DNA from: a virus
Virus record (IMG/VR): IMGVR_UViG_3300031553_000018
Coordinates: 1-35,545 of that record
Strand: one strand, 5' to 3'
DNA: 35,545 nucleotides
Within the stretch, counting starts at the first letter, position 1, and each line of letters begins with the position of its first letter. A model generated the notes under the pieces. That model was not told the origin of the DNA. It did no database searches and worked only from the letters and a program-made list of their open reading frames with translations. The translations under genes were made by a program, and so were the position numbers. Below are positions 14,581-35,545 of the stretch, piece by piece.

Positions 14581-16707
14581 ATGGGATTAGGGAGCACAGT
14601 TGCCAACCTTGTTATGCAATGGGCGGCAAAGCGCAGCAAGTGGGATACATTCACGCCTCGCTTAGGTAATCCGTGGATGGCTGGGCAGGCTATCTTCCCT
14701 GAATGGTCAACCGAGAAAGCGGTAAAAGAAGGCTATAAAGCTAGCTATATTTACTATACCGTAGCATCTGATATAGCAGACTGTATACGCTCCGTGCCGT
14801 GGGTGGTCAAGCGCAAGACAAAGACTGGCTCGGACCTTGTTGATAGTCACCCGCTCATGGAGATGCTACGAAGTCCGAACTCTGAAACCACCTGGGGGGC
14901 ACTTAGTGAAGCGTGGGATCTGTTCAAGTCTATTGATGGGGACGCCTATGGGCATTTCGTACAGATCGCAGATGAGATGAAGATTTGGCTCCTACGTAAC
15001 GACCGCGTGAGAATAGTTCCTGATAAACGCGGACACATTGAGTCCTATAAATATACTCTAGGAGGAGAGTCTGAGCATTTCCCGCCCGAGGAGATCCTAC
15101 ACTTTAAGTTCTTCGACCCTAGCTCTGACTACTACGGGCTGGCTCCTCTACAGGCTGGAGCACCGATCATTGACACTCTAAATGCGAGCATTAAGTGGAA
15201 TAGGGTAGCGATAGGTAGGCGCGCTATCAAAGATATGATCCTCGCTCCTGAGAAAGGCGTGAATATGAGTGGAACGCAGTATGAAGATTGGATTAAACAT
15301 ATAAACAAGCAAATCCACGGCCCTGAGAATGCCCACGGGCTGCTCATCAATTCGTTTGGTGTACAAATGGCGGAAATGTCACGCACTCCCATTGAGATGG
15401 ATTTTATAAAGTCTGCGGGGTTCTACGAGGCGGCGGCGTGCAAGATCCTCCATGTGCATCCCGAGGCAATCGGAGCACTAGGGGCGACGTTTGAAAATAA
15501 GGAATGGGCTATCCGCGATAAGTGGCAAGGTCCGGTTGAATCAAGGTTGTCTGAGATGCGCGCGGTATTTAACCACAAGTTCCGACCTCTGTTTGGCACA
15601 GCCGATCCTAAGCTAGCAGCACCAGGTGATTTGTTCATGGACTACGACCTAACGAATACACCAGGGGCAAATGCGGCACAGAAGGAAGGGCTTGATCGAG
15701 CAGTGAAGGCATGGAAGTGCGGCGTACCGTGGGATGTAGCTGATGAGAAGTTTGGTGTCGGTATCGGGCCGGTTCCTGGCGGTGACGTGGGTTACCTTCC
15801 AGTGAATGTTCTTCCAGCGGGGACACCTCCAAGTAAAGGCCGGTCAAGCCGGTCGTTCAACTTGGAAACCAAGGAACAGTTTGCAGCGCACTGGCGGGCA
15901 GTTGACCGTCGTAAGCAGGGATGGGAGCGCGGCGTTGCGCTAAAGGTCGCTCAGGAATTCAGGCTTGAACGTGAGGCAGTAGTAAAGGCGATCAAGGCGG
16001 GGCACGTCGATGTCGATTATGTGGTAGACGCACGAGCTCCCTCATGGTTGAAATTGGTCACGGCTGTTATGAGAGCCGTCATCGAAGACTTTGGCGGTCA
16101 AGTGGCAGATGATCTCAATGGTGGGGCCACAGAGGTAGGCCCCAGCTCGGAAAAGGCAATAGCGGGCCTCTCAGAAGATTTGGAGGCTCGACAAGGCTAC
16201 GAATTTGATCCGTGGAATGATCTGATTAAAAAGTGGGTCACTACTAAGACAGCGGAGGACGTTGTAGAGATTGGCATAACGACCAAGAAGGCGATTCGCA
16301 AGGTAGTCCTTGCCAGCCTCAAAGCGGGCGAATCATCGGTGAAGATCGCCAAACAGATTGAGGGAGTCTATCGGCGCTGGGAGAAGGTTGAAGGCCTAAT
16401 AGATCCAACGACAAAAAAGCCGGTCGTTGCACGAGCGATGATGATTGCGCGAACCGAGGTGCACACGGCGACTGGATTCGGGATGCACGAGTCGGCGCGA
16501 CAGTCGGGCGTGGCAAAAAAGAAGGCGTGGCTGTCTGCGATGGACCCACCGAGGGCGCGAGAGATGCACATGGAGATAAGCGGGATCTGGATTCCGTTCG
16601 ATGAGCCATACGTAATGGCTGATGGAGCGGAAATGCAGCATCCAGGTGACGGACCAGCGGATCACGTTATAGGCTGCCGTTGCACAGAAATGTATAGAGG
16701 TTCATAG
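14581..16707 (+). CDS. Portal protein fused to Mu gpF-like head protein
   Basis: A 708-residue fusion. Residues about 1-400 are an HK97-type portal (PWVVKRKTKTG, LLRNDRVRIVPDKRGHIESY, YYGLAPLQAGAPIID, GFYEAAACKILHVHPEAIG), which forms the DNA entry ring. From about 505 the protein becomes a Mu gpF-like minor head domain (MIARTEVHTATGFG at about 620, then WLSAMDPPRAREMH, HPGDGPADHVIGCRC). A basic linker joins them. These are usually two neighbouring genes, so the fusion guarantees a 1:1 ratio. GGGGGTGGTG precedes the ATG. Confidence 0.9.
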   Translation: MGLGSTVANLVMQWAAKRSKWDTFTPRLGNPWMAGQAIFPEWSTEKAVKEGYKASYIYYTVASDIADCIRSVPWVVKRKTKTGSDLVDSHPLMEMLRSPNSETTWGALSEAWDLFKSIDGDAYGHFVQIADEMKIWLLRNDRVRIVPDKRGHIESYKYTLGGESEHFPPEEILHFKFFDPSSDYYGLAPLQAGAPIIDTLNASIKWNRVAIGRRAIKDMILAPEKGVNMSGTQYEDWIKHINKQIHGPENAHGLLINSFGVQMAEMSRTPIEMDFIKSAGFYEAAACKILHVHPEAIGALGATFENKEWAIRDKWQGPVESRLSEMRAVFNHKFRPLFGTADPKLAAPGDLFMDYDLTNTPGANAAQKEGLDRAVKAWKCGVPWDVADEKFGVGIGPVPGGDVGYLPVNVLPAGTPPSKGRSSRSFNLETKEQFAAHWRAVDRRKQGWERGVALKVAQEFRLEREAVVKAIKAGHVDVDYVVDARAPSWLKLVTAVMRAVIEDFGGQVADDLNGGATEVGPSSEKAIAGLSEDLEARQGYEFDPWNDLIKKWVTTKTAEDVVEIGITTKKAIRKVVLASLKAGESSVKIAKQIEGVYRRWEKVEGLIDPTTKKPVVARAMMIARTEVHTATGFGMHESARQSGVAKKKAWLSAMDPPRAREMHMEISGIWIPFDEPYVMADGAEMQHPGDGPADHVIGCRCTEMYRGS

Positions 16708-16722: not shown

Positions 16723-17160
16723 ATGAGTAACAGGCGATTTTGGGAGTCTTCACACTACGATAGCGATCACGACATTGGTACTCCGATCAGCATTGCTATA
16801 ACGACACCGGCAACGGGTAGCTATCGTCTAGGGTGCGAACTGGCTTGCGACAATGGGGTAGTGTTGCAGTGGTATGAGGGCGTGACGATCGGCGCGGCTG
16901 GGACAGCGATGGTGTGGCGGAACGTGATCAGATCAGACAGCGCCGAGGATGAGACACATGCAGTATTGATTGAGCAAGGTGGAACGTATACGGGTGGAAC
17001 GCTGATCCGGCAGCGGATGGGCGCATGGTCGTATACCGATCCGTCTGAGCCTCCTCCTCCGTTTACGCTGAAGCAGAGTACGACTTACCTGGTGGTTGCC
17101 ACGTCGCTTGCAGACAACAATGACACGACGCTAATTATGCGGCTGTCGAAGCGAAGGTGA
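16723..17160 (+). CDS. Beta-rich virion protein
   Basis: A 145-residue protein. The pattern ISIAITTPATGSYRLGCELA, LQWYEGVTIGAAGTAMVWRN, GGTYTGGTLI is typical of small beta-sandwich virion proteins in siphovirus head regions, perhaps a decoration or fibre-knob protein. Its place between portal and protease supports a virion role. ATG 16723 is chosen (GGGAGAGGTG upstream); GTG 16714 is in frame. Confidence 0.6.
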   Translation: MSNRRFWESSHYDSDHDIGTPISIAITTPATGSYRLGCELACDNGVVLQWYEGVTIGAAGTAMVWRNVIRSDSAEDETHAVLIEQGGTYTGGTLIRQRMGAWSYTDPSEPPPPFTLKQSTTYLVVATSLADNNDTTLIMRLSKRR

Positions 17161-17165
17161 TGGCG

Positions 17166-18185
17166 ATGGATAGACTACAGGCGATTCACAATTTTGAGCT
17201 GAGGGAGCTTGATGAAAAGGGCCGGTTCAGCGGCTATGCCTCAGTGTTCGGGGTCCTCGATACGTATGGAACAGTGTTTGATAAGGGGGCATTCAAAAAG
17301 ACGATCAAGGATCACAAAGGCGTCTTTCCATTAACCTGGATGCACAACGCGACTGTACCTATAGGAATGGCGAATGTTGAAGAGGATAGTCACGGTCTGT
17401 TCGTCAAGGAAGGGCAGCTTGATCTTGACGTTGAGAAAGGGCGCGACGTATATAGCGGAATGATGAAGAAGTATATCACGCAGATGAGCCATAGCTTTCA
17501 TTCCTTGAAGGAGTTGATTATTGAGGAGAACGACAAGAAGATTCCGCACTTCAAGGAAGTCCGTTTATATGAGATTGCACCAGTGACTACTAACTTTGCC
17601 TCAAATGAGGAGGCGTTGATCGGTGAGGTAAGGATGCAGGAGGAGCGTGGCGTGATCTCATCGAATCTTCCGCTTGGAGATCGCAAGAAGAAGTGGGATA
17701 AGGCCGCTGCGGAAAAGCGCGTGAGGGCATGGGCCGGAGCAGGAGATGAACCGAACGCGAAGTACCGAAAGGCGTTTTTGTGGTACGACGGGGAGAATGC
17801 AGACAAGTTCGGTGCTTACAAGTTGATGATCGGTGATGTGATTGGTGGGACTTTGAAGGCGATGCCGCGAGCGATCTTTGCTGTGGCGGTTGTTCTCCAA
17901 GGCGGACGCGGCGGGGTGAATATCCCTGCCTCTGATAAGGTGAAAGTCAAGACAATTATAACGAAGTATTATCACAAGATGGATGAGAAGGCCCCTTGGG
18001 AGTCGAAAACGATTTATATTCCTGTGGGGATGGCATTTCAGATGGGACGTTTATCAGCACTCCTCAGAGAGCCGCCCGTTGGCACTCTCGTAGGGGAGCC
18101 GCGACGCAAGCCGGGCGACCACTTGCGAGAAGTCCAAGAACAAATCACCCGTATAGAACGGGTACTAAAAGGCGGTGAATCATGA
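17166..18185 (+). CDS. HK97-type prohead protease with C-terminal extension
   Basis: A 339-residue capsid maturation protease (peptidase family U35/HK97). The N-terminal domain shows FSGYASVFGVLDTYGTVFDKGAF, TWMHNATVPIGM with likely catalytic His60, and MSHSFHS with likely nucleophile Ser108 or Ser110. The C-terminal domain (about 175-290: AKYRKAFLWYDGE, LKAMPRAIFAVAVVLQGGRGG) is a known fusion partner in phage proteases. It should cut the N-terminal delta region of the capsid protein encoded next. ATG 17166 has AAGGTG 6 bases upstream; GTG 17157 and ATG 17160 are in frame. Confidence 0.85.
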   Translation: MDRLQAIHNFELRELDEKGRFSGYASVFGVLDTYGTVFDKGAFKKTIKDHKGVFPLTWMHNATVPIGMANVEEDSHGLFVKEGQLDLDVEKGRDVYSGMMKKYITQMSHSFHSLKELIIEENDKKIPHFKEVRLYEIAPVTTNFASNEEALIGEVRMQEERGVISSNLPLGDRKKKWDKAAAEKRVRAWAGAGDEPNAKYRKAFLWYDGENADKFGAYKLMIGDVIGGTLKAMPRAIFAVAVVLQGGRGGVNIPASDKVKVKTIITKYYHKMDEKAPWESKTIYIPVGMAFQMGRLSALLREPPVGTLVGEPRRKPGDHLREVQEQITRIERVLKGGES

Positions 18186-20896: not shown

Positions 20897-20908
20897 GAGG
20901 TGGTGAGA

Positions 20909-22813
20909 ATGAAGAAAGTATTTGTATTGATGCTTGCCGTCCTCCTTCTGGGGACGGTTGGAGTGACGCAGACTAAAATCTTCGATACTGTTATTATCGA
21001 AGGACCGCTTACCCTTACAGGGACGAGCGTAGTGTCATTCACTGGCTTAACGTTCGCGCTAGATTTTAGCTCTACTGTGTTAATCGACGGAGCAGCGTCG
21101 GTTGACCTTACGAGCGCGGGACACGTTGATCTCGAATCGGCAGACATCCGACTTGGACTTGATGCGGATGACTACATGAAGCTCGTCACGACCAACAGTA
21201 CAGCGGATCTGTCTATCTCTCATCCGGGGAATACTGGGGCATTGATAACATGGACCGCTGGCGGTTGGACACTCACGGGCAACTTTGCAACTGATGGTAC
21301 AACGGCGCAGTTGGATGGAAGCACGTCCGTTAAGCTCGTAAGTAATACGCTTGCGGGTGTAGAGTGCGGTGATATTCGACTGGGTTATGATGCCAGTGAT
21401 TATATGAAGATCGCTGTTGCTACTGGAACTGGAGACGTAACTATTACCCATACCGGTACAAACAAAGCCGTAAGCTGGACCGCTGCTGGCGGATTTAGCT
21501 GGGCGGGTGAGTTTGCAATGAATACCAATAAGATCACTGGTGCAGGAGATCCAACAGCAGCGCAGGATTTAGCAACAAAAGCCTACGTTGACGCCACAGC
21601 GCAAGGGTTGAAGGTTCATGCGGCTGTCGCGTGTGCTACTACTGCGAACATCTCATTGTCGGCAGAGCAAACACTGGACGGTATCCTGACATCAACCGAC
21701 AGGGTTCTAGTAAAGGATCAAACGGCCCCCGCAGAGAACGGTATCTATGTCAGTGCTGGAGGTGCTTGGGTAAGAGCCGGTGACATGGACGTGTCCACAG
21801 AGGTAGCAGGATCATTCGTTTTCGTGTCTGATGGGACAACCCTCGGATGCACCGGATGGACCTGTACTATCGAACCAGAAGACTTCACACTTGGCACGAC
21901 TGCAATGCCTTGGAGTCAATTCTCCGATGCTGGATATATTACGGCAAGCGGTGGGTTGACAAAGACGGGTAATAACGTTGCCCCTGATGGCAACCTGGCA
22001 GACCTTAATACGTCTGGCGAGGTTTCAGGTGATAACTACGTCCTTGCCAGTACAGGCGCGGGTGTGGTTGTCTGGGAAACGGGCGATACTCTTCGCACGT
22101 CTCTTGGTTTGGCTATTAGTACGAATGTTCAAGCCTGGGACACGGATCTAGATACCTGGGCGACACTAACACCGACCGCTGATGCACAAACACTCGTTGA
22201 ATCAACAAATTTCCTATCGATGACTCAGGATCTAAGTGTCGAGATAGGCGTAGACGTCCAAGCGTGGGATACACAGCTAGATGATATCGCGGCCTTGGTT
22301 CAGTCAGATTCCTACATTATTGTTGGCGATGATTCAAACTGGGTACAGGAAACTGGAGCTACGGCTAGAAGTTCGCTCGGGGTTGCCATCGATTCTGATG
22401 TGCAAGCATACAGCGCGGATCTTGGCACAATTGCAACAGCGGCGTCAACTGCTACTAATGAGGGTGTGGTATTCATCAGTCAGTTTGCCATTGCCCATAC
22501 GCAGACGGATAGTTACACGGTCTGCATAGTTCCGGCAAATGCCGATGTGACCAAAGTCGAGATCGCTACCACCACAGCCTTCACCGGTGGGTCTGCGACT
22601 ACGATTGATGTTGGTTACGTCGGTACGCTTGAAGCTTACGCTAGCGATCTTGACATTCGCTCCGCGGGCTTTGCGGACTGTGACGTGTTTAGCAATCTAG
22701 GCGACGTTGGTGCATCTGACGTAACGATGAAGGCGCAGATCGCAACCGATGATAGCGCGGGCGCGTGTATAGTCTATATTTACTGGACGATGGGCACGCC
22801 TGGAACTCCATAA
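20909..22813 (+). CDS. Fibre protein with signal peptide
   Basis: A 634-residue fibre. ATG 20909 (AGGAGG 8 bases upstream) gives MKKVFVLMLAVLLLGTVGVT, a typical signal peptide. Two copies of a DIRLG-DA-DYMK...WTA-GG domain (nt 21143 and 21371, period 228) follow. The middle DLATKAYVDATAQGLKVHAA and LVKDQTAPAENGIYV are tail-fibre hallmarks, and the LG-AI-T-VQAWDTDLD repeats (nt 22088-22440) suggest a trimeric shaft. The C-terminal beta domain is like the 20480 protein. Its location among head genes suggests a capsid fibre. Confidence 0.7.
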   Translation: MKKVFVLMLAVLLLGTVGVTQTKIFDTVIIEGPLTLTGTSVVSFTGLTFALDFSSTVLIDGAASVDLTSAGHVDLESADIRLGLDADDYMKLVTTNSTADLSISHPGNTGALITWTAGGWTLTGNFATDGTTAQLDGSTSVKLVSNTLAGVECGDIRLGYDASDYMKIAVATGTGDVTITHTGTNKAVSWTAAGGFSWAGEFAMNTNKITGAGDPTAAQDLATKAYVDATAQGLKVHAAVACATTANISLSAEQTLDGILTSTDRVLVKDQTAPAENGIYVSAGGAWVRAGDMDVSTEVAGSFVFVSDGTTLGCTGWTCTIEPEDFTLGTTAMPWSQFSDAGYITASGGLTKTGNNVAPDGNLADLNTSGEVSGDNYVLASTGAGVVVWETGDTLRTSLGLAISTNVQAWDTDLDTWATLTPTADAQTLVESTNFLSMTQDLSVEIGVDVQAWDTQLDDIAALVQSDSYIIVGDDSNWVQETGATARSSLGVAIDSDVQAYSADLGTIATAASTATNEGVVFISQFAIAHTQTDSYTVCIVPANADVTKVEIATTTAFTGGSATTIDVGYVGTLEAYASDLDIRSAGFADCDVFSNLGDVGASDVTMKAQIATDDSAGACIVYIYWTMGTPGTP

Positions 22814-23074: not shown

Positions 23075-23258
23075 TCTAGTTATCATTCTAGGTATTAGCT
23101 GCGGGTTGATTGGTACTTGGCTGGCAACCCCGTCGTATGGAATAACGTTTTACACATACAGCTGGGCAACCATTCAGGATATGAACGATCCCGCGACTGG
23201 AGCATGTTTGTTTCCGGCAGATACGGTACAAGGCCAAAGTGTGAGTGTGGGACTATGA
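23055..23258 (+). CDS. Small membrane-anchored protein (second of pair)
   Basis: A 67-residue protein with a GCGGAGG site, overlapping the previous gene by 20 bases. An N-terminal hydrophobic helix (PLVISLVIILGISCGLIGTW) leads to a polar tail with one further Cys. The LGISCG stretch mirrors LGVGCG of its neighbour, suggesting duplication. A lipobox reading is imperfect in both. Confidence 0.55.
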   Translation: MKPLVISLVIILGISCGLIGTWLATPSYGITFYTYSWATIQDMNDPATGACLFPADTVQGQSVSVGL

Positions 23259-23464
23259 AGATCGAGCTTACAAAAGACAGGAAGATTAAGGGCAAGCCTC
23301 GCGAAGCAGGCGAAACCATCACTGTCCAGAAGGACCTTGGCGAACGGCTGATTAGTAACGGCTTGGCGAACAGGATAATTGGCGAACAAGAGAATCGGGT
23401 GGCCTTGGAGGACCAGGGCCACCGCCGGTTCAGTGGTCACAAAATCTTTAGGGGTGACCCATGA
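23255..23464 (+). CDS. Small phage protein of head-module type
   Basis: A 69-residue basic protein starting at ATG 23255 (overlapping the previous stop). The pattern KIELTKDRKIKGKPREAGET...V.KDLGERLISNGLA is a small protein often placed between capsid and connector genes in siphoviruses; function unknown. The ribosome binding site is weak, so translation may depend on coupling. Confidence 0.6.
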   Translation: MKIELTKDRKIKGKPREAGETITVQKDLGERLISNGLANRIIGEQENRVALEDQGHRRFSGHKIFRGDP

Positions 23465-23991
23465 GTATAGTGGCCTGCAGAGTCAACAAAGATAACTATG
23501 AGATCGCCGCTGATTCGATCACTGTACGTGGATACACACAAGAAAAAGGTGATCGGACTAAACATTCGAAGCTTTGGGAGTCTAATGGTTTGATTGTTGG
23601 CGGGGTTGGATTTTGCGAAGAGCTAGGATTATTGCAATTCTTTGCCGGTACACATCAACTTGCAGCAGCAACGGAAGGAGCTTTACTAGAGTTTCTTGTG
23701 GAGTTTTCAGCGTGGAAAAAGCGAAAGATCAATAAACCAGAGCTGGAAAATTCCTATCTTATGGGTATAGAAGACATTATTTTGTATGTAAATCAATGGC
23801 ACATTACACGTGTCTCTACATTTGAGGCAATCGGAGCTGGAGAGGACTTTGCGCTTGCGGCGTTACACCTTGGGCACAGTGCAGAAGAAGCAGTGCGTGT
23901 GGCGACTGAACTAAGTATCTATTGTGAAACACCAATTCAGGTTAAGCGGAGAACTTTCAAAGGAGAGGGTAAAGGAGTAGCCGATGCCTAA
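23461..23991 (+). CDS. HslV/proteasome-beta-like Ntn hydrolase
   Basis: A 176-residue protein resembling HslV and proteasome beta subunits. After removal of Met, the chain starts at Ser1 with Asp17 (in EIAADS) and Lys33 (in RTKHSKLWE), the same positions as Thr1/Asp17/Lys33 of HslV. Further matches are IVGGVGFCEELGLLQFF and AIGAGEDFALAALHLGHSAE, like HslV GxxG and AIGSG..ALAAA. Serine replaces the usual threonine nucleophile. No ATPase partner (HslU) is nearby. Placed between head and connector genes, a role in virion maturation is possible; a non-catalytic role is the alternative. Confidence 0.75.
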   Translation: MSIVACRVNKDNYEIAADSITVRGYTQEKGDRTKHSKLWESNGLIVGGVGFCEELGLLQFFAGTHQLAAATEGALLEFLVEFSAWKKRKINKPELENSYLMGIEDIILYVNQWHITRVSTFEAIGAGEDFALAALHLGHSAEEAVRVATELSIYCETPIQVKRRTFKGEGKGVADA

Positions 23992-24694
23992 TGGCCCTGT
24001 CTACACGAACCTAGAATGGGAAGAAGAGGGCGAAGAGGTAACTCTCAAAATCCTCACTAAGGCGTATTGCAATGTCGATGGGACGGATTATGATACGTTG
24101 CTTGAAGCTCTATTCGACGCGGCGAAGCGCAAGGCCGACGAATATCTTAACAATCCATTCGAGGTACTTAACCCTACCATCGTGTTCTCAGGCGTTGAGG
24201 AGAATGATTACATCACTGTCAACGGGCGATCCTATACGGTTGCTGACGCGTTAGATGAGGATGAACTATACTTTGCACTTGGGGATACCGATTCAGATAC
24301 AGCGGACAACTTTTGCTCATTAGTGAACTCGACTACGCTTGGCGGCTCTTATGGGGCCGTTGGCGTGGTTGGGGTAACAGCGACCAACAAGGAAGGTACG
24401 GTTACCTTGACGCGGCGTTATCCCTATCCTGGCAACAAGCTCATTGAGGTTGCAAGTTCAGATGAGGATAAGCTCCTCGTTAGGCAAGTGAGGACATCGG
24501 TCACGATCCCAGAGGATGTAGAACAGTGGATCATGCAGCGCGTCAAGCGTCACTTTGACAACCGAGATGCGCTTCTCTCGGAGAACATTACCGGAAAAAG
24601 TGTCAAGACGTGGATCTCGATGAAGTCGGAAGAAGCGGGGATGGTTGACAATTTTGACCTCCTTTCGCACTACATATTGTTACCGGGACTATAA
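23984..24694 (+). CDS. Head-tail connector (gp6-like) with inserted domain
   Basis: A 236-residue protein. The N-terminal helix pair (LEALFDAAKRKADEYLNNPF) and C-terminal helix (IPEDVEQWIMQRVKRHFDNRD) together look like an HK97 gp6/SPP1 gp15-type connector, but they are separated by about 100 residues (62-162) of the beta domain also found in the 19710 and 25906 proteins. So the insert grew out of a connector loop. Overlaps the upstream gene by 8 bases. Confidence 0.65.
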   Translation: MPNGPVYTNLEWEEEGEEVTLKILTKAYCNVDGTDYDTLLEALFDAAKRKADEYLNNPFEVLNPTIVFSGVEENDYITVNGRSYTVADALDEDELYFALGDTDSDTADNFCSLVNSTTLGGSYGAVGVVGVTATNKEGTVTLTRRYPYPGNKLIEVASSDEDKLLVRQVRTSVTIPEDVEQWIMQRVKRHFDNRDALLSENITGKSVKTWISMKSEEAGMVDNFDLLSHYILLPGL

Positions 24695-27032: not shown

Positions 27033-27626
27033 ATGACTGAGAAAGAAACGAGCGGCGCGGGGCCTATGACCTGGGTCCCGCCCGTGCTAGACATTGTGGG
27101 TGTAGAGCGTAAGGTAAGTCGGCTTGGGCTTCCGCAGATTGGATATCTGGCAAAGATTTACGCTGCCGCTTCATCCCTTGCGAACCGTGCTGCCATGCTA
27201 CAAGCGATCAACGATCCTACGATACTTGGAACGTTTTTGATCGATGCCTGTGTTGTAGCCTTCGATGAAGTTGTGGAACTACTTGCCAGCGTGATCGGTA
27301 TGGATCCTGGCGTGTCTGAGAAAAGAATGGCGAAGCTCCGCGAGGAGCATGACCGCCGTAATGCGCAGCGTGTTGAACGAGGAGAGGATGCTTTCCCGTG
27401 GGTTCCACTTAGTAACGAGGGTACGATCCGCGACCCGAACACATTTCCGCTTGACGCTATTGTAGACCTCATTGAGGCTGTCATTACACATGATGACGTG
27501 ATTGCTTTTTTCGACAAGTTCAAACGGATGGCGAAAGGCCCAGCCCTGGAGAAGCTGATACAGGGTTTGAAAGGGCGATCGACCGGATCGAAGAAAGGTA
27601 CGGGTGGACGGACGAAGAAGTCCTAG
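27033..27626 (+). CDS. Tail assembly chaperone, short form (gpG-like)
   Basis: A 197-residue helical protein between the tube and tape-measure genes, where tail assembly chaperones lie. LDAIVDLIEAVITHDDVIAFF and a basic C-terminus are seen. The G_GGT_TTG heptamer at 27563-27569, in frame, allows a -1 shift into a second frame that continues to 27916, as with lambda gpG/gpGT. A second in-frame heptamer, T_TTT_TTC, is at 27506-27512. Confidence 0.8.
   Translation: MTEKETSGAGPMTWVPPVLDIVGVERKVSRLGLPQIGYLAKIYAAASSLANRAAMLQAINDPTILGTFLIDACVVAFDEVVELLASVIGMDPGVSEKRMAKLREEHDRRNAQRVERGEDAFPWVPLSNEGTIRDPNTFPLDAIVDLIEAVITHDDVIAFFDKFKRMAKGPALEKLIQGLKGRSTGSKKGTGGRTKKS
27563..27569 (+). promoter_or_regulatory. 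Slippery heptamer for -1 frameshift
   Basis: G_GGT_TTG matches the X_XXY_YYZ rule in the chaperone frame. The codons just after the slip read as natural protein in the -1 frame, which favours this site over T_TTT_TTC at 27506-27512, whose shifted product reads less naturally between the sites. Confidence 0.65.
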
Positions 27627-27916
27627 CGTTACCGTACTCGCGGCTCTTACAGCTAATACGGGTAACACGAGAGGCTGTCAGAAGTGACCGCCAACGGGAA
27701 GCAATATGGAGTTACAGAGCAAGCCCGCCAACAGTAGGCGAAGGGGAAAACAGAACGGTAGTGCCGCTCAATAATTGGCTTGTGCAGCTTGGGCTTGGTG
27801 AGGAAGTAGAAGAGAAGGGGCGCACGTTGACCGACGAAGACATCAAGCGAGCATTCTCGCGGGGTGTAAGGAAGATAGCGGTGCTTCCACCAGGGATGAA
27901 GATTAAGGAGAAGTAA
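27563..27916 (+). CDS. -1 frameshift extension of the tail chaperone (gpGT-like)
   Basis: Reading -1 after the GGGTTTG slippery site gives GFERAIDRIEERYGWTDEEV, then LALPYSRLLQLIRVTREA, and the frame stays open to TAA 27914-27916. The RYGWT...LPYS..LL pattern is typical of the T part of gpGT proteins. There is no start codon of its own, so it must be made as a fusion of about 294 residues. This fusion binds the tape measure protein during tail assembly. Confidence 0.8.
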   Translation, partial: GFERAIDRIEERYGWTDEEVLALPYSRLLQLIRVTREAVRSDRQREAIWSYRASPPTVGEGENRTVVPLNNWLVQLGLGEEVEEKGRTLTDEDIKRAFSRGVRKIAVLPPGMKIKEK

Positions 27917-27917
27917 G

Positions 27918-30900
27918 GTGGTTCAAAATCGAAATCTTTAGATTATTCGGCACAATTCAAGTAAATAAGGCCAAGGCGATCGCTGACCTGAAGGCCGTCT
28001 CTGCGGCGGGTCAGACGCAAGGTAATAAGCTGACGAGCATTTTCAAGGCAGTTGGAAAGGCCGCCATTGCTGGGTTCGCTATCGTTGCCGCTGCTGGCGC
28101 GGGGATCTTCGTTGCTGCGATCAAAAAGGCTGCTGATTACGAACTCGCTATGGCAAAGGTTCGGGCGATTACCGGGGCCTCAGCGGATGAGTTTGCTGAC
28201 TTAACCAGAAAAGCCAAAGAGCTCGGTCTTGAAACCGCACAGACCATGACCGATATCGCGGCGGGCATGGAAGCATTCGGGCGGGCTGGATTCAGTGCAA
28301 CAGAGATTATCAGCGCGATGGATGGTGCAGTAGCTCTCGCTGAGTCACAGGTGATGGACCTTGGTGAGGCTGTAGGTATCACAGCAAACATCCTGCGAGG
28401 GATGAGGCTTGAGGCGTCGGAGTCGGAGCGTGTCGTCAATGCGCTTGCAGCGGCGGCCTCATCGTCTAATACAACGGTTGGTTCGCTTGCTGAGTCGATG
28501 AAATATCTGGCGCCGATAATGGCTGACCTGAACATTCCACTCGAAGAAGGGTTGGCAATCATCGGCAAGCTGGGCGACGCAGGCCTGACAGGGACGATGG
28601 CTACCCGTGCTCTTGCAACTGCTTTTACACGACTTGCCGATCCAACGTCAGACATGAAAAAGGCGATGGAAGAACTCAATATTGAGTTCTTTGATGCTCG
28701 AGGGAACTTTATCGGTTTAACTCCGATGATTGCTCTGCTTGAGGATCGCTTCGCAGGCTTAACTCAAGAGCAACGATCGGCAGCCATTTCTACTCTGTTT
28801 GGAGCGGAGGCCCTAAAGCACTTCTCAATCCTGTTGGGTGTTGGGGCCGAAGACATTACCGCGTATACAGATAAGATAACAGGAACAACGAAGGCGTTCG
28901 ACCAACAAGCCGAGATGCTGAACACGCTTTCAGGTCAGTGGCAGATTCTCAAAGGGTCGGTCGAGCTGTTGCTGGTAACAATCGGAATAGACATGATGCC
29001 GATTCTCAAGACTTTTCTAAAGGACCGCATTATCCCCATAGTCAACAATATGACTTCTTGGATCGAGAAGATGGGGGGATTGAAGGGTATCTTTGCCGCG
29101 CTGAAGGGCAAGGTCAGGGATTGGGCAAGAGAGCACGAGCTGTTGATCTCAGCGTTCGTCAGGGGCAAGGATGCGGTGGTGAGGCTGTGGCACACGGTGG
29201 TGGATGCATTCCGCACCATAGTCACAACGCTTGGATATGGTAGCGATGAAGCCGACACCTTCGGCGCTGATTTTGAAAGCGCTCTCACCGTAGCGATAAA
29301 CATTGTGACAACGTTGGTCGGTGGAGTTACTAAATTCGTCAAGTTTCTAGCGGATCATGGCCGTACTACAATAGCTATTATTGCCGGTATCGGCGCAGCG
29401 TTTATCGCGTGGAAAGTATCGTTAATAGTAACAAGTCTAACAACAGTCGCTACTGGTTTGTGGGGAATGGCAACGGCGGCTGGCGCTGCTATTGCGGCGG
29501 GGGGATGGATCGCCTTACTGATCGCGGGCATGGGCTTGTTGGCCTACAGGACAATTAAGCATTGGGATGAGATTAAAGAGGCAGGCGTTGGCAAGTGGGC
29601 TGGGATTATCGGTATGCCAACCGATGCACAATGGCTACAGTGGGCAAAGGATTTATGGAATGGGTTCCTTGGCATATTACCAGACAATGCAGACTGGCTC
29701 AACTGGGGTATAAGCATCCTGAATGGCATCATAGGAGCATTGAACTGGATGCTTGACGGACTAACTGCATGGATGCCTAATTGGATGCGAGAATGGTTTC
29801 ATATTGGCGAGCTTTCCGCAATAGCTATAGGGGAAGGAATTGAGAGTAAAACCGATGTTATAGAAACAGCGGGTGATGCTTTAGTAAAGACAACCGAAGA
29901 GATACAAGCGGAGGTTTTAGAGACCACACAAGACTACTTAGGGCAAGAGAGAATACTTACTCTTGACCATCTCACTCTTCTTGGTGCTGCAAGGAAGAAA
30001 GCCGGTGATGAGAGGGAAGAAACACATAGGGATGGATTGGCAAACATTCTCAGGGCCGAAGAGCAATTCCAAGCGGACACGGCTGCTTCACACGAAGAGC
30101 ACCATGAGGATGAGATAGAGGCAGAGGGGACGTTCTGGGATGACTTCATAGACGTTGTGAGGGATAGCGGAGCCGAGGTTGGAAACGTAATGGCCGATAT
30201 GTGGGATAGCCTCAAGTCCCTGGCGAAGAGTGCCTTGGGCGACACGTTGAATGGTATTGTCGATCACTTCCGCGACCAGCGGCGACTAGCGGAGGAACAT
30301 GCGGACCGGATGCTCGATATAGAGGAAGACTATAACCAGGACGCAGCGGATCTTCAGTATACCCGCCAGGACGACTCTAAAGACGCAGAGCTATCCTACC
30401 AACGGAGAGTAGAGGATATCGAGAGAAGATACCGAAGAGAGTTGCAAGGCATAACTGGTGAAGATACAGAGGAACGAGCTCGAATCGAGACCCGCTACCG
30501 TGAAGACATGGAAGATGCAACAACGAACTATGCCCGTCGCAGGGAGGACATTGAGGAAGATTATTCGGACGCAGTTATCGCGCAAGAGAGGCGTCGTGAA
30601 CAAGCATTAGCAGATGAAAGACAGGAATACAAGGACACGCAGAAATCCCTATGGGGGGTACTTGGGGATATGCTGCATGATTTACTTACCGCGTTGCGCG
30701 AAGAACTATTTGTAAAGGCGGCGTCTCATGCCGTGGAAGCGCTTGCGTGGTCTTTCATCCCTCCGTTGTTTTTCCTGAATCCACAGGCGATCGGGCATGC
30801 AGCAGCGGCAGCGGCGTTTGCTGCTGGCGGTGCTGGCTTAGCAATTGCTGGCTTTGGGGAAGGCGCGGTATTTGAACAGCCGACCATGATCCCTCCGGCG

Positions 30901-33462: not shown

Positions 33463-35545
33463 GTGGCGACCGTAGTAGTTTATAATACTAGCCGAGAACC
33501 AATTGCCGATCTCCATCTGGCGTTTGGCGTTGGCTATGAACAACGGATCAACGGTCTCCACCGCGCTTGGTTCAGTCTCCCTCTAGACGATCCTCACATC
33601 GCAGAATGCACAGGAATGAATTACGCAGAGATCTGGGACGGTGATGAGCGGGTAGACCTGTTCAGGATCGTAAGGAAGTACAAGCGTCGCACAACAAAAG
33701 AAACCTATTACCGCTTCGAGTGCGAACATGCCCTGGTAACGCTGATGGACAACCGGTTCCAGGCGACTACCTACTCAGGGCCAGGAACAACGACCTCGAT
33801 CGGTGACGTGCTCGATGAACAGGATACGGCCAACTGGCAACTTGGGACGTGCGACTTTGATCGGCAGTTTTTGTACAAGTGGAAGCCAGGCACATCTCTT
33901 CTCGAAGCATTGATGTCGATTCCGGCACGGTTCCAATGCGCTTATCAGTTGACATGGGATACGTCCTCTTATCCGTGGACGCTCAACCTAATTGAGCCGC
34001 CTGCAACAGTTACCGCTTATCTCGACTATTCCCGTAACCTGAAGACCGTCGAAAAGGATGAGGACTTTCGCGGGCTTTATACACGTCTCTATCCGTATGG
34101 TGCGAAAGCGGGGGCGGACCAGCTTGACATCACAGGTATTGAACCAGACGGCCACAACTACATCGAGAACAACGTTGGCACTTACGGATTGATCGTAGGC
34201 CCACGCTGGAGCGATCAGAGATATACCATCGCACAGAACCTCTACGATGCAGCGGTTGACAAGTTAGCTGAGGCGTCGGTGCCCAAGGTAACGTATACGA
34301 TGGGTGCGGCGGACCTCTCCCGCCTCACCGGAGTAAGTACGGACCAATTCGTGCTCGGGACATTGCTCTCTGTCAATGATACGGATATGGGAATCACGAT
34401 CGAAGAGCGGATCGTTTCCGTCTCTAAGCCGGATCTCGACGGGAAGCCAGGAGATGTGACGATCCAAACATCCAATAAGTCAGAGGAGTTCGACCTGCGG
34501 GACGTAGTACGGGTGAACGACCTGAGTGCGTTAGAGATGGTGGACATTCCAGGTGGGGTGGTGGGAGCGTTAGCAGCCTCACCCTCAGTGGCGGGCCTCT
34601 ATGCCTCTACCGATTACTTGGGGTTCTCAGATGGAACTGACTGGCGTGCTTATTTCGACATCGCTGGACGGGTCAGGCTCATTGGTGATGCAGACCACTA
34701 CCTTACGTTTGACATCAATGCGTCACCACCACTAACGATCAAATCAGACGGTGAGTGGCTAGGTACCGCATTGATCTCGAATCTAATCGCTGGAAATCTA
34801 ACCGTGGGTATGAATCTAGGTACCGGCGGCTATATCAAGAGTGATAACTTCGAGACAGGTGTTTCAGGGTGGAGAATCAACCCCGACGGCTCAGCGGAGT
34901 TCCAGGATGCGACAATTAGGGGCTCCCTCAATGCCTCAGACTTAGACGCGGGTACGATTGACTTCGCAACGATTAGTAGGTCGGGTATGTCAGTTATCGC
35001 TGATGAAATCGCTAACGGTGCGGTAACCGATGCGAAGATCGATACTGTATCGGTGAGTAAGTTGCTCGCGGGGGATATCAATGTAGCGTGGAACCTGATA
35101 GCCGGTGGATCGGTCAAGAGTGACAACTATGAGGCAGGTGTAAGTGGCTGGCAGATCAACAACAGCGGAAGTGCGGAGTTCCAGAATGCAACTATACGAG
35201 GGTCATTGAATGCGTCTGACCTTGACGCAGGGACCATTGATTTTGCTACGATCTCCCGTTCGGGTATGAGCATTATAGCTGATGAGATTGCTAATGGAGC
35301 TGTGACGGACGCTAAGATTGATACGGTATCAGTCTCAAAGTTGCTTGCTGGTGACATCAACGTGGCGTGGAACCTCGTAGCTGGAGGTTCGGTCAAGAGT
35401 GACAATTATGAAGTAGGAGTAAGTGGCTGGCAGATCAACAACAGCGGAAGTGCGGAGTTCCAGAATGCAACTATACGAGGGTCATTGAATGCGTCTGACC
35501 TTGACGCAGGGACCATTGATTTTGCTACGATCTCCCGTTCGGGTA
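33463..35545 (+). CDS. Tal-like tail-tip protein (truncated by window end)
   Basis: A GTG start directly after the previous stop (GAAGGAGTGTAA upstream) opens a frame of 694 codons that leaves the window. The N-terminal part (EIWDGDERVDLFRIVRKYKR, then YYRFECEHALVTLMDN) matches minor structural/prophage tail proteins (TIGR01665-like, Tal). After the GRVRLIGDAD region come repeats of SGW-IN--GSAEF-NATIRGS, as in tail-tip host-specificity proteins. At least three 93-residue units are seen. It should contact the host surface; any lytic domain would be beyond the window. Confidence 0.8.
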   Translation, partial: MATVVVYNTSREPIADLHLAFGVGYEQRINGLHRAWFSLPLDDPHIAECTGMNYAEIWDGDERVDLFRIVRKYKRRTTKETYYRFECEHALVTLMDNRFQATTYSGPGTTTSIGDVLDEQDTANWQLGTCDFDRQFLYKWKPGTSLLEALMSIPARFQCAYQLTWDTSSYPWTLNLIEPPATVTAYLDYSRNLKTVEKDEDFRGLYTRLYPYGAKAGADQLDITGIEPDGHNYIENNVGTYGLIVGPRWSDQRYTIAQNLYDAAVDKLAEASVPKVTYTMGAADLSRLTGVSTDQFVLGTLLSVNDTDMGITIEERIVSVSKPDLDGKPGDVTIQTSNKSEEFDLRDVVRVNDLSALEMVDIPGGVVGALAASPSVAGLYASTDYLGFSDGTDWRAYFDIAGRVRLIGDADHYLTFDINASPPLTIKSDGEWLGTALISNLIAGNLTVGMNLGTGGYIKSDNFETGVSGWRINPDGSAEFQDATIRGSLNASDLDAGTIDFATISRSGMSVIADEIANGAVTDAKIDTVSVSKLLAGDINVAWNLIAGGSVKSDNYEAGVSGWQINNSGSAEFQNATIRGSLNASDLDAGTIDFATISRSGMSIIADEIANGAVTDAKIDTVSVSKLLAGDINVAWNLVAGGSVKSDNYEVGVSGWQINNSGSAEFQNATIRGSLNASDLDAGTIDFATISRSG
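34841..35545 (+). repeat. 279-bp tandem repeats in the Tal-like gene
   Basis: Units start near 34841, 35120 and 35399 with an exact 279-base (93-codon) period; the third is cut by the window end. Units 2 and 3 are identical over 127 bases (35140-35266 and 35419-35545), while unit 1 and the middle of unit 2 differ mostly at third codon positions. Such repeats can recombine to change tail-tip length. Confidence 0.9.

Follow-up and report, generated by a model that had tools for sequence, protein, structure and literature searches.

PPH, a phage-borne proteasome homologue, has about 140 residues and lacks helix H2 (Fuchs, Alva, Lupas 2021, PMC8665760). AAH and CPH, group-I homologues for which no loss of H2 is reported, are also found in phages, and in connectase H1 and H2 are absent and a two-helix insertion lies between S3 and S4 (PMC8665760). 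In BPH the counterpart of proteasome Lys33 is Lys-37, no unfoldase is known, and natural Ser1 proteins occur outside the Betaproteobacteria and retain the other active-site residues, including the serine that binds the N-terminus; CodW, the HslV of Bacillus subtilis, also uses Ser1 (PMC5777263). In the proteasome itself the alpha-amine of Thr1 is bound by Ser129, Asp166 and Ser169, and Ser129 and Asp166 are proposed to protonate it (PMC4792962). Neither proteasome homologues in phages (PPH, AAH) nor a natural Ser1 (some BPH, CodW) is new to the literature; the published accounts that we found show no function for the phage proteins.

We analysed a stretch of viral DNA of 35,545 nucleotides (the window), in which a first-pass annotation had placed a proteasome/HslV-like enzyme with a serine instead of Thr1 between head and connector genes. 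The ORF exists as described, with an ATG start, Met followed by Ser, and a 176-residue product that begins MSIVACRVNKDNYEIAADSITVRGYTQEKGDRTKHSKLWESNGLIVGGVGF...; its location between head and connector genes was also confirmed, the start codon overlapping the upstream DUF7210 ORF by 4 nt and the stop overlapping the downstream gp6-like connector gene by 8 nt (Table 1). A profile search, one of the checks proposed with that annotation, matched an Ntn-hydrolase-type family, phrog_1040 ('peptidase HslV family', E=1.1e-13), and this profile also matched all seven of the related proteins, described below, that were tested with it. The Pfam Proteasome and NCBIfam HslV models gave no match to the window protein, nor did a single-sequence phmmer search of PDB chains, so that we regard it as a real homologue overlooked by the general curated libraries. 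Weak sequence-profile matches were obtained to T. maritima HslV (E 0.0026) and to BPH (E 0.0048). Profile matches in the PDB to designed dTor repeat proteins were ignored, since they added up from many weak matches of helices and no domain was significant by itself.

Table 1. Coordinates in the window of the Ser1 gene, its predicted functional positions and associated features (residues in mature numbering unless stated otherwise).
Feature	Position	Strand	Remarks
Prohead serine protease (Peptidase_S78), the phage's own	17157..18185	+	
DUF7210-domain ORF, upstream	23117..23464	+	conserved neighbour among related phages
Block nearly identical to phage contig L014	about 23423..23989	+	gene 99.6%; flanks 80.6%, 90.7%
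Ser1 proteasome-like Ntn-hydrolase homologue, 176 aa	23461..23991	+	phrog_1040 E=1.1e-13, AlphaFold model, Foldseek
Ser1 codon, predicted nucleophile after Met removal	23464..23466	+	Ser 14/14
Asp17 codon, predicted catalytic	23512..23514	+	14/14
Lys33 codon, proposed in the first-pass annotation	23560..23562	+	Lys only 6/14
Lys36 codon, counterpart of proteasome Lys33 / BPH Lys37	23569..23571	+	14/14; 22/22 in wider set
Gly46-Gly-Val-Gly49, oxyanion-hole strand	23599..23610	+	both outer glycines 14/14
Helix H2, model residues 72-90, invariant Trp-Lys	23674..23730	+	aligned with HslV Trp-Arg helix
Ala125 of GAG, at proteasome Ser129 / BPH Ser139	23836..23838	+	Ala 14/14
Ser151 to Cys154; Ser and Cys at proteasome Asp166 and Ser169	23914..23925	+	
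Head-tail connector (gp6-like), downstream	23984..24694	+	query for syntenic phages

An AlphaFold model built on an alignment of 14 members (pLDDT 87.6, pTM 0.83) shows low confidence only in the loop 25-34 and the C-terminal tail, with H1 at residues 52-64 and H2 at 72-90. Its best Foldseek match in the PDB is BPH (5ovs/5ovt/5ovu; 5ovt, E 1.9e-9, TM 0.81), followed by HslV and 20S beta subunits, and also Anbu; 39 homologues were found in the viral structure library at E<=0.001. The window protein is thus predicted to have the proteasome beta fold of the Ntn-hydrolase superfamily, in which H1-H4 flank two beta sheets. The comparison of a predicted structure with HslV had been named as a check of the proteasome/HslV-like assignment, and the assignment gains support from the model as well as from phrog_1040; a fold unrelated to Ntn hydrolases is ruled out by the matches to BPH, HslV and 20S beta.

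Viral contigs were scanned with profiles, as were genome contigs in a single scan, which gave a Ser1 subfamily of 14 distinct proteins, made up of the window protein, members from twelve other viral contigs and one from a Calditrichota MAG. These proteins have 165-183 residues, are 36-63% identical to the window protein and all carry Met-Ser at the aligned start (one after a GTG start codon); the serine in place of Thr1 is a conserved feature. The sampled PPH-type proteins begin with Met-Thr, the exceptions being those of Caulobacter phage C1 (Ser1) and ZY21 (N-terminally incomplete annotation). The Ser1 subfamily forms one clade (support 99/98) on a stem of 2.25 changes per column; its point of attachment among the long branches is uncertain. 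Comparison of the window gene with that of its nearest relative, L027, shows purifying selection (dN 0.28, with dS saturated at about 2.3). Isolate phages yielded distant relatives and no subfamily member, and no relative was found in the plasmid collection; among 40 genomes of the phylum of the Calditrichota member, the gene was found in that one genome only, which carries a separate Thr1 HslV.

The claim that Ser1, Asp17 and Lys33 occupy the catalytic positions of HslV, and the prediction that they should be conserved, proved correct for the first two residues, which are invariant in the subfamily together with Lys36, Gly46 and Gly49 (14/14 in each case). Position 33 is Lys in 6 of 14 members and in 2 of 22 proteins of a wider set, and L027 (63% identical) has Ser there (position 34 with Met), so that Lys33 was rejected as the catalytic lysine. 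Lys36, on the other hand, is present in all 14 members and in all 22 proteins of the wider set, and in the alignment with phage relatives both Asp at position 18 and Lys at position 37 (numbered with Met) are invariant. The catalytic lysine is thus predicted to be Lys36, the shift from 33 being due to three extra residues, relative to HslV, in the loop before it; a similar drift is seen in BPH, with its Lys-37.

Two further segments had been matched to the family in the first-pass annotation. IVGGVGF does correspond to the oxyanion strand, and AIGAGEDFALAA is the start of H3, but here the family motif GSG has become GAG, a change at an important point. In the register seen when profiles are aligned with HslV, BPH and human beta5, all 14 subfamily members have Ala where the proteasome has Ser129 (BPH Ser139), as against Ser, Thr or Cys in 22 of 22 others; at the Asp166 position 13 of 14 have Ser, as against Asp in 20 of 22 others; and at the Ser169 position 12 of 14 have Cys, as against Ser or Thr in nearly all others. 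HslV, which has Cys at the Asp166 position, is a working protease all the same, and the replacement of Asp166 alone is therefore not decisive. Judging from the alignments, the Ala at the Ser129 position is the cleanest departure of the subfamily, because other Ser1 proteins, namely those of BPH type (PMC5777263) and that of Caulobacter phage C1 (MSTLAY; L046 63-503), retain the other active-site residues. In the Caulobacter phage C1 protein, Ser1 is an independent change and both GSG and Asp166 are kept, so that a serine at position 1 does not by itself bring the other replacements with it. The gene of this phage sits in the terminal repeat and falls in another branch of the phage family.

How the subfamily relates to the named systems can be read from these features. 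It resembles PPH in being phage-borne and short, in having no propeptide and in the same Asp and Lys, and the two are homologous over most of their length (profile-profile probability 98.8%, E 9e-17). The sampled PPH-type proteins, however, have Thr1 (one has Ser), GSG (or T/C), mostly Asp166 and Ser/Thr169, where the subfamily has Ser1, GAG, Ser and Cys; and since the subfamily is longer and possesses H2, which PPH by its description lacks, we did not file it as PPH, although the homology is clear. Ser1 proteins of BPH type keep the serine that binds the N-terminus, where the subfamily has Ala, and BPH has about 200 residues and a long acidic pore loop, whereas the alignment of the 176-residue window protein contains no long acidic insertion. 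HslV and CodW share with the subfamily the fold, the Trp-Lys/Arg of H2 and an E/D-x-x-I-Y motif near the last helix, and differ in the GSG to GAG change and in an identity of about 20%. As complexes, HslV is a hexameric double ring with ATP-dependent proteolysis and BPH a double ring of fourteen subunits. The absence of an HslU partner, as first proposed, was borne out, since neither HslU nor another AAA+ unfoldase was seen among the window ORFs scanned, the window being a fragment and a host HslU being possible. Connectase differs from the window model, in which H1 and H2 are present and the low-confidence loop 25-34 is free of helices. As a coherent group with Ser1 and an altered alpha-amine pocket, the subfamily appears to be new; AAH and CPH were compared by description only, and as they also occur in phages the subfamily may fall inside one of them, which is the main risk to this claim. 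Two other phages carry genes of related type: Erwinia phage Gungnir39, an isolate, has a Thr1 HslV-like gene in its connector module (L049 2195-2656), a separate case, and in Aeromonas phage 4L372XY a pair of neighbouring genes (L007 2093-3489) both belong to the 'peptidase HslV family' but to distinct subtypes.

A search with the connector gene retrieved 16 related contigs, 2 with the Ser1 gene and 14 without it. In contig L014 the gene is nearly identical to that of the window, while outside the shared block identity falls to 80.6% over the adjacent 206 bases and to 90.7% in the connector, which is the signature of a recent cassette exchange. Contig L013 shares 97% identity with the window starting at base 23973 and 96-98% in the head region, but has in the same slot a different small gene, phrog_16397, replacing the Ser1 gene. 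The Ser1 gene is a mobile accessory cassette. The sequence GTAGCCGATGCCTGA is found at the start codons flanking the replacement gene of L013 (5683-5698, 5993-6008) and also in the window (23976-23990), and these copies could act as homology for cassette swaps.

The surroundings of the gene vary across the subfamily. The L027 member lies between head and connector genes, as in the window, that of L039 beside a Mu-F head protein and capsid, and that of L057 directly upstream of a neck protein; others are found in terminase neighbourhoods (L040, L062), near replication genes (L056), or next to a dUTPase (L064, L068), a nucleotide-kinase-like AAA_28 gene (L042) or a phosphoesterase (L067). The Calditrichota member adjoins ordinary chromosomal genes, coding for a cation-efflux transporter, a methyltransferase and a GNAT acetyltransferase. 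Head and connector modules thus account for 4 of about 12 gene neighbourhoods (the window, L027, L039, L057), which leaves room for a virion-linked role.

Some other features of the structural region of the window deserve mention. One 708-aa ORF (14581-16707) fuses Phage_portal and Phage_Mu_F (Pfam). A 637-aa structural protein (20900-22813), with head-decoration and tail-fibre-like PHROG matches, has an apparent Sec signal peptide, VVRMKKVFVLMLAVLLLGTVGVTQTK, and a similar signal-peptide-like start, unusual for a virion protein, is present in the relatives L013, L015, L022, L026 and L027. About 520 bases (27626-28150) separate a 197-aa ORF, which follows the major tail protein, from the tape-measure ORF; they lie outside the continued frame of the 197-aa ORF and are a possible tail-assembly-chaperone frameshift region. 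A 694-aa ORF that runs off the end of the window (33463-35544) has near-identical tandem repeats, SGSAEFQ[DN]ATIRGSLNASDLDAGTIDFATISRSGMS..., of a repetitive tail-type protein.

We propose, with a probability of roughly 55%, that the gene encodes an accessory, horizontally exchanged subunit of group I (HslV/BPH/PPH-type) that exposes Ser1, assembles into one or more rings and acts as a narrow peptidase without an unfoldase, outside core virion maturation. Methionine aminopeptidase prefers small second residues, and the host enzyme would take off the Met and expose Ser1. The conserved Lys36 and Asp17 would then activate the Ser1 hydroxyl, with the Gly46-Gly49 strand as the putative oxyanion hole, and the subunits, if folded as predicted, would probably close into a single or double ring through H1-H4. 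In the infected cell such a ring may cleave peptides, or proteins that are unfolded or small, with narrow specificity and with no dedicated unfoldase. In favour of this reading, the yeast proteasome with the T1S replacement is active, at a rate 40-45% lower on its specific substrate (PMC4792962); against it, purified BPH, the nearest solved fold, was inert on standard substrates (PMC5777263).

Within the reading as an accessory peptidase, the substrate might be one particular host protein, the enzyme serving counter-defence or host takeover and being swapped between phages. Cassette exchange and patchy presence, both seen here, are typical of host-interaction genes; yet a PADLOC defence-database search gave no match, no neighbour is conserved and nothing points to any target, and we think this sub-case less likely than not. 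The first-pass annotation favoured a peptidase acting on virion proteins or a scaffold of the same fold. In this line, the protein would be a virion-assembly factor, either a peptidase or a ring scaffold, that works on head or connector proteins and is produced late, as part of the head operon. To the four head-linked neighbourhoods one may add the HslV-like gene of Gungnir39, which lies between head-tail adaptor and head-closure genes. This proposal is nevertheless weakened by the relatives that share the connector and lack the gene, by the substitute found in L013, by the S78 prohead protease that the phage already encodes and by those members whose surroundings are replication or nucleotide-metabolism genes. 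Since the phage has its own protease, relatives do without the Ser1 gene and the subfamily is not tied to head genes, a role in core maturation is unlikely, and we think a virion-assembly function of any kind rather unlikely.

Other explanations start from the active site. As the three residues that hold the alpha-amine are replaced, classical hydrolysis should not be assumed, and the subfamily might be a distinct phage lineage in which Ser1 became fixed as the anchors and proton donors of the alpha-amine were exchanged for other residues; the outcome would be acyl transfer, ligation or slow cleavage of a single target, not that of a proteasome which simply has serine in place of Thr. We consider this improbable. 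Lower still do we place a ligase, transpeptidase or other acyl-transfer enzyme, with an outcome like that of connectase, in which the Ser1 acyl-enzyme is resolved by an amine and not by water. The concerted replacement of Ser129 by Ala, Asp166 by Ser and Ser169 by Cys, with Ser1-Asp-Lys retained, is consistent with it, and connectase shows that the fold is capable of ligation (PMC8665760), but HslV does without Asp166 as a protease and the model, with H1 and H2 in place, does not have the connectase signature. A catalytically dead structural relic of the proteasome fold is very improbable: inactive copies of the fold exist, such as the 20S alpha subunits (PMC8665760), and a second set of active-site residues has been replaced, but Ser1, Asp17, Lys36 and both oxyanion glycines are invariant among members this divergent, and the gene is under purifying selection.

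If the accessory-peptidase reading is correct in its ordinary form, the Ser1 protein is one more accessory phage peptidase. To our knowledge, proteasomes rely on Thr without exception, and explanations of why this is so have been drawn mostly from engineered mutants. A natural lineage where Ser is universal and the alpha-amine pocket is altered lends itself directly to testing those explanations, and because the cassette is gained and lost between near-identical phages, carriers and non-carriers can be compared as they occur in nature.
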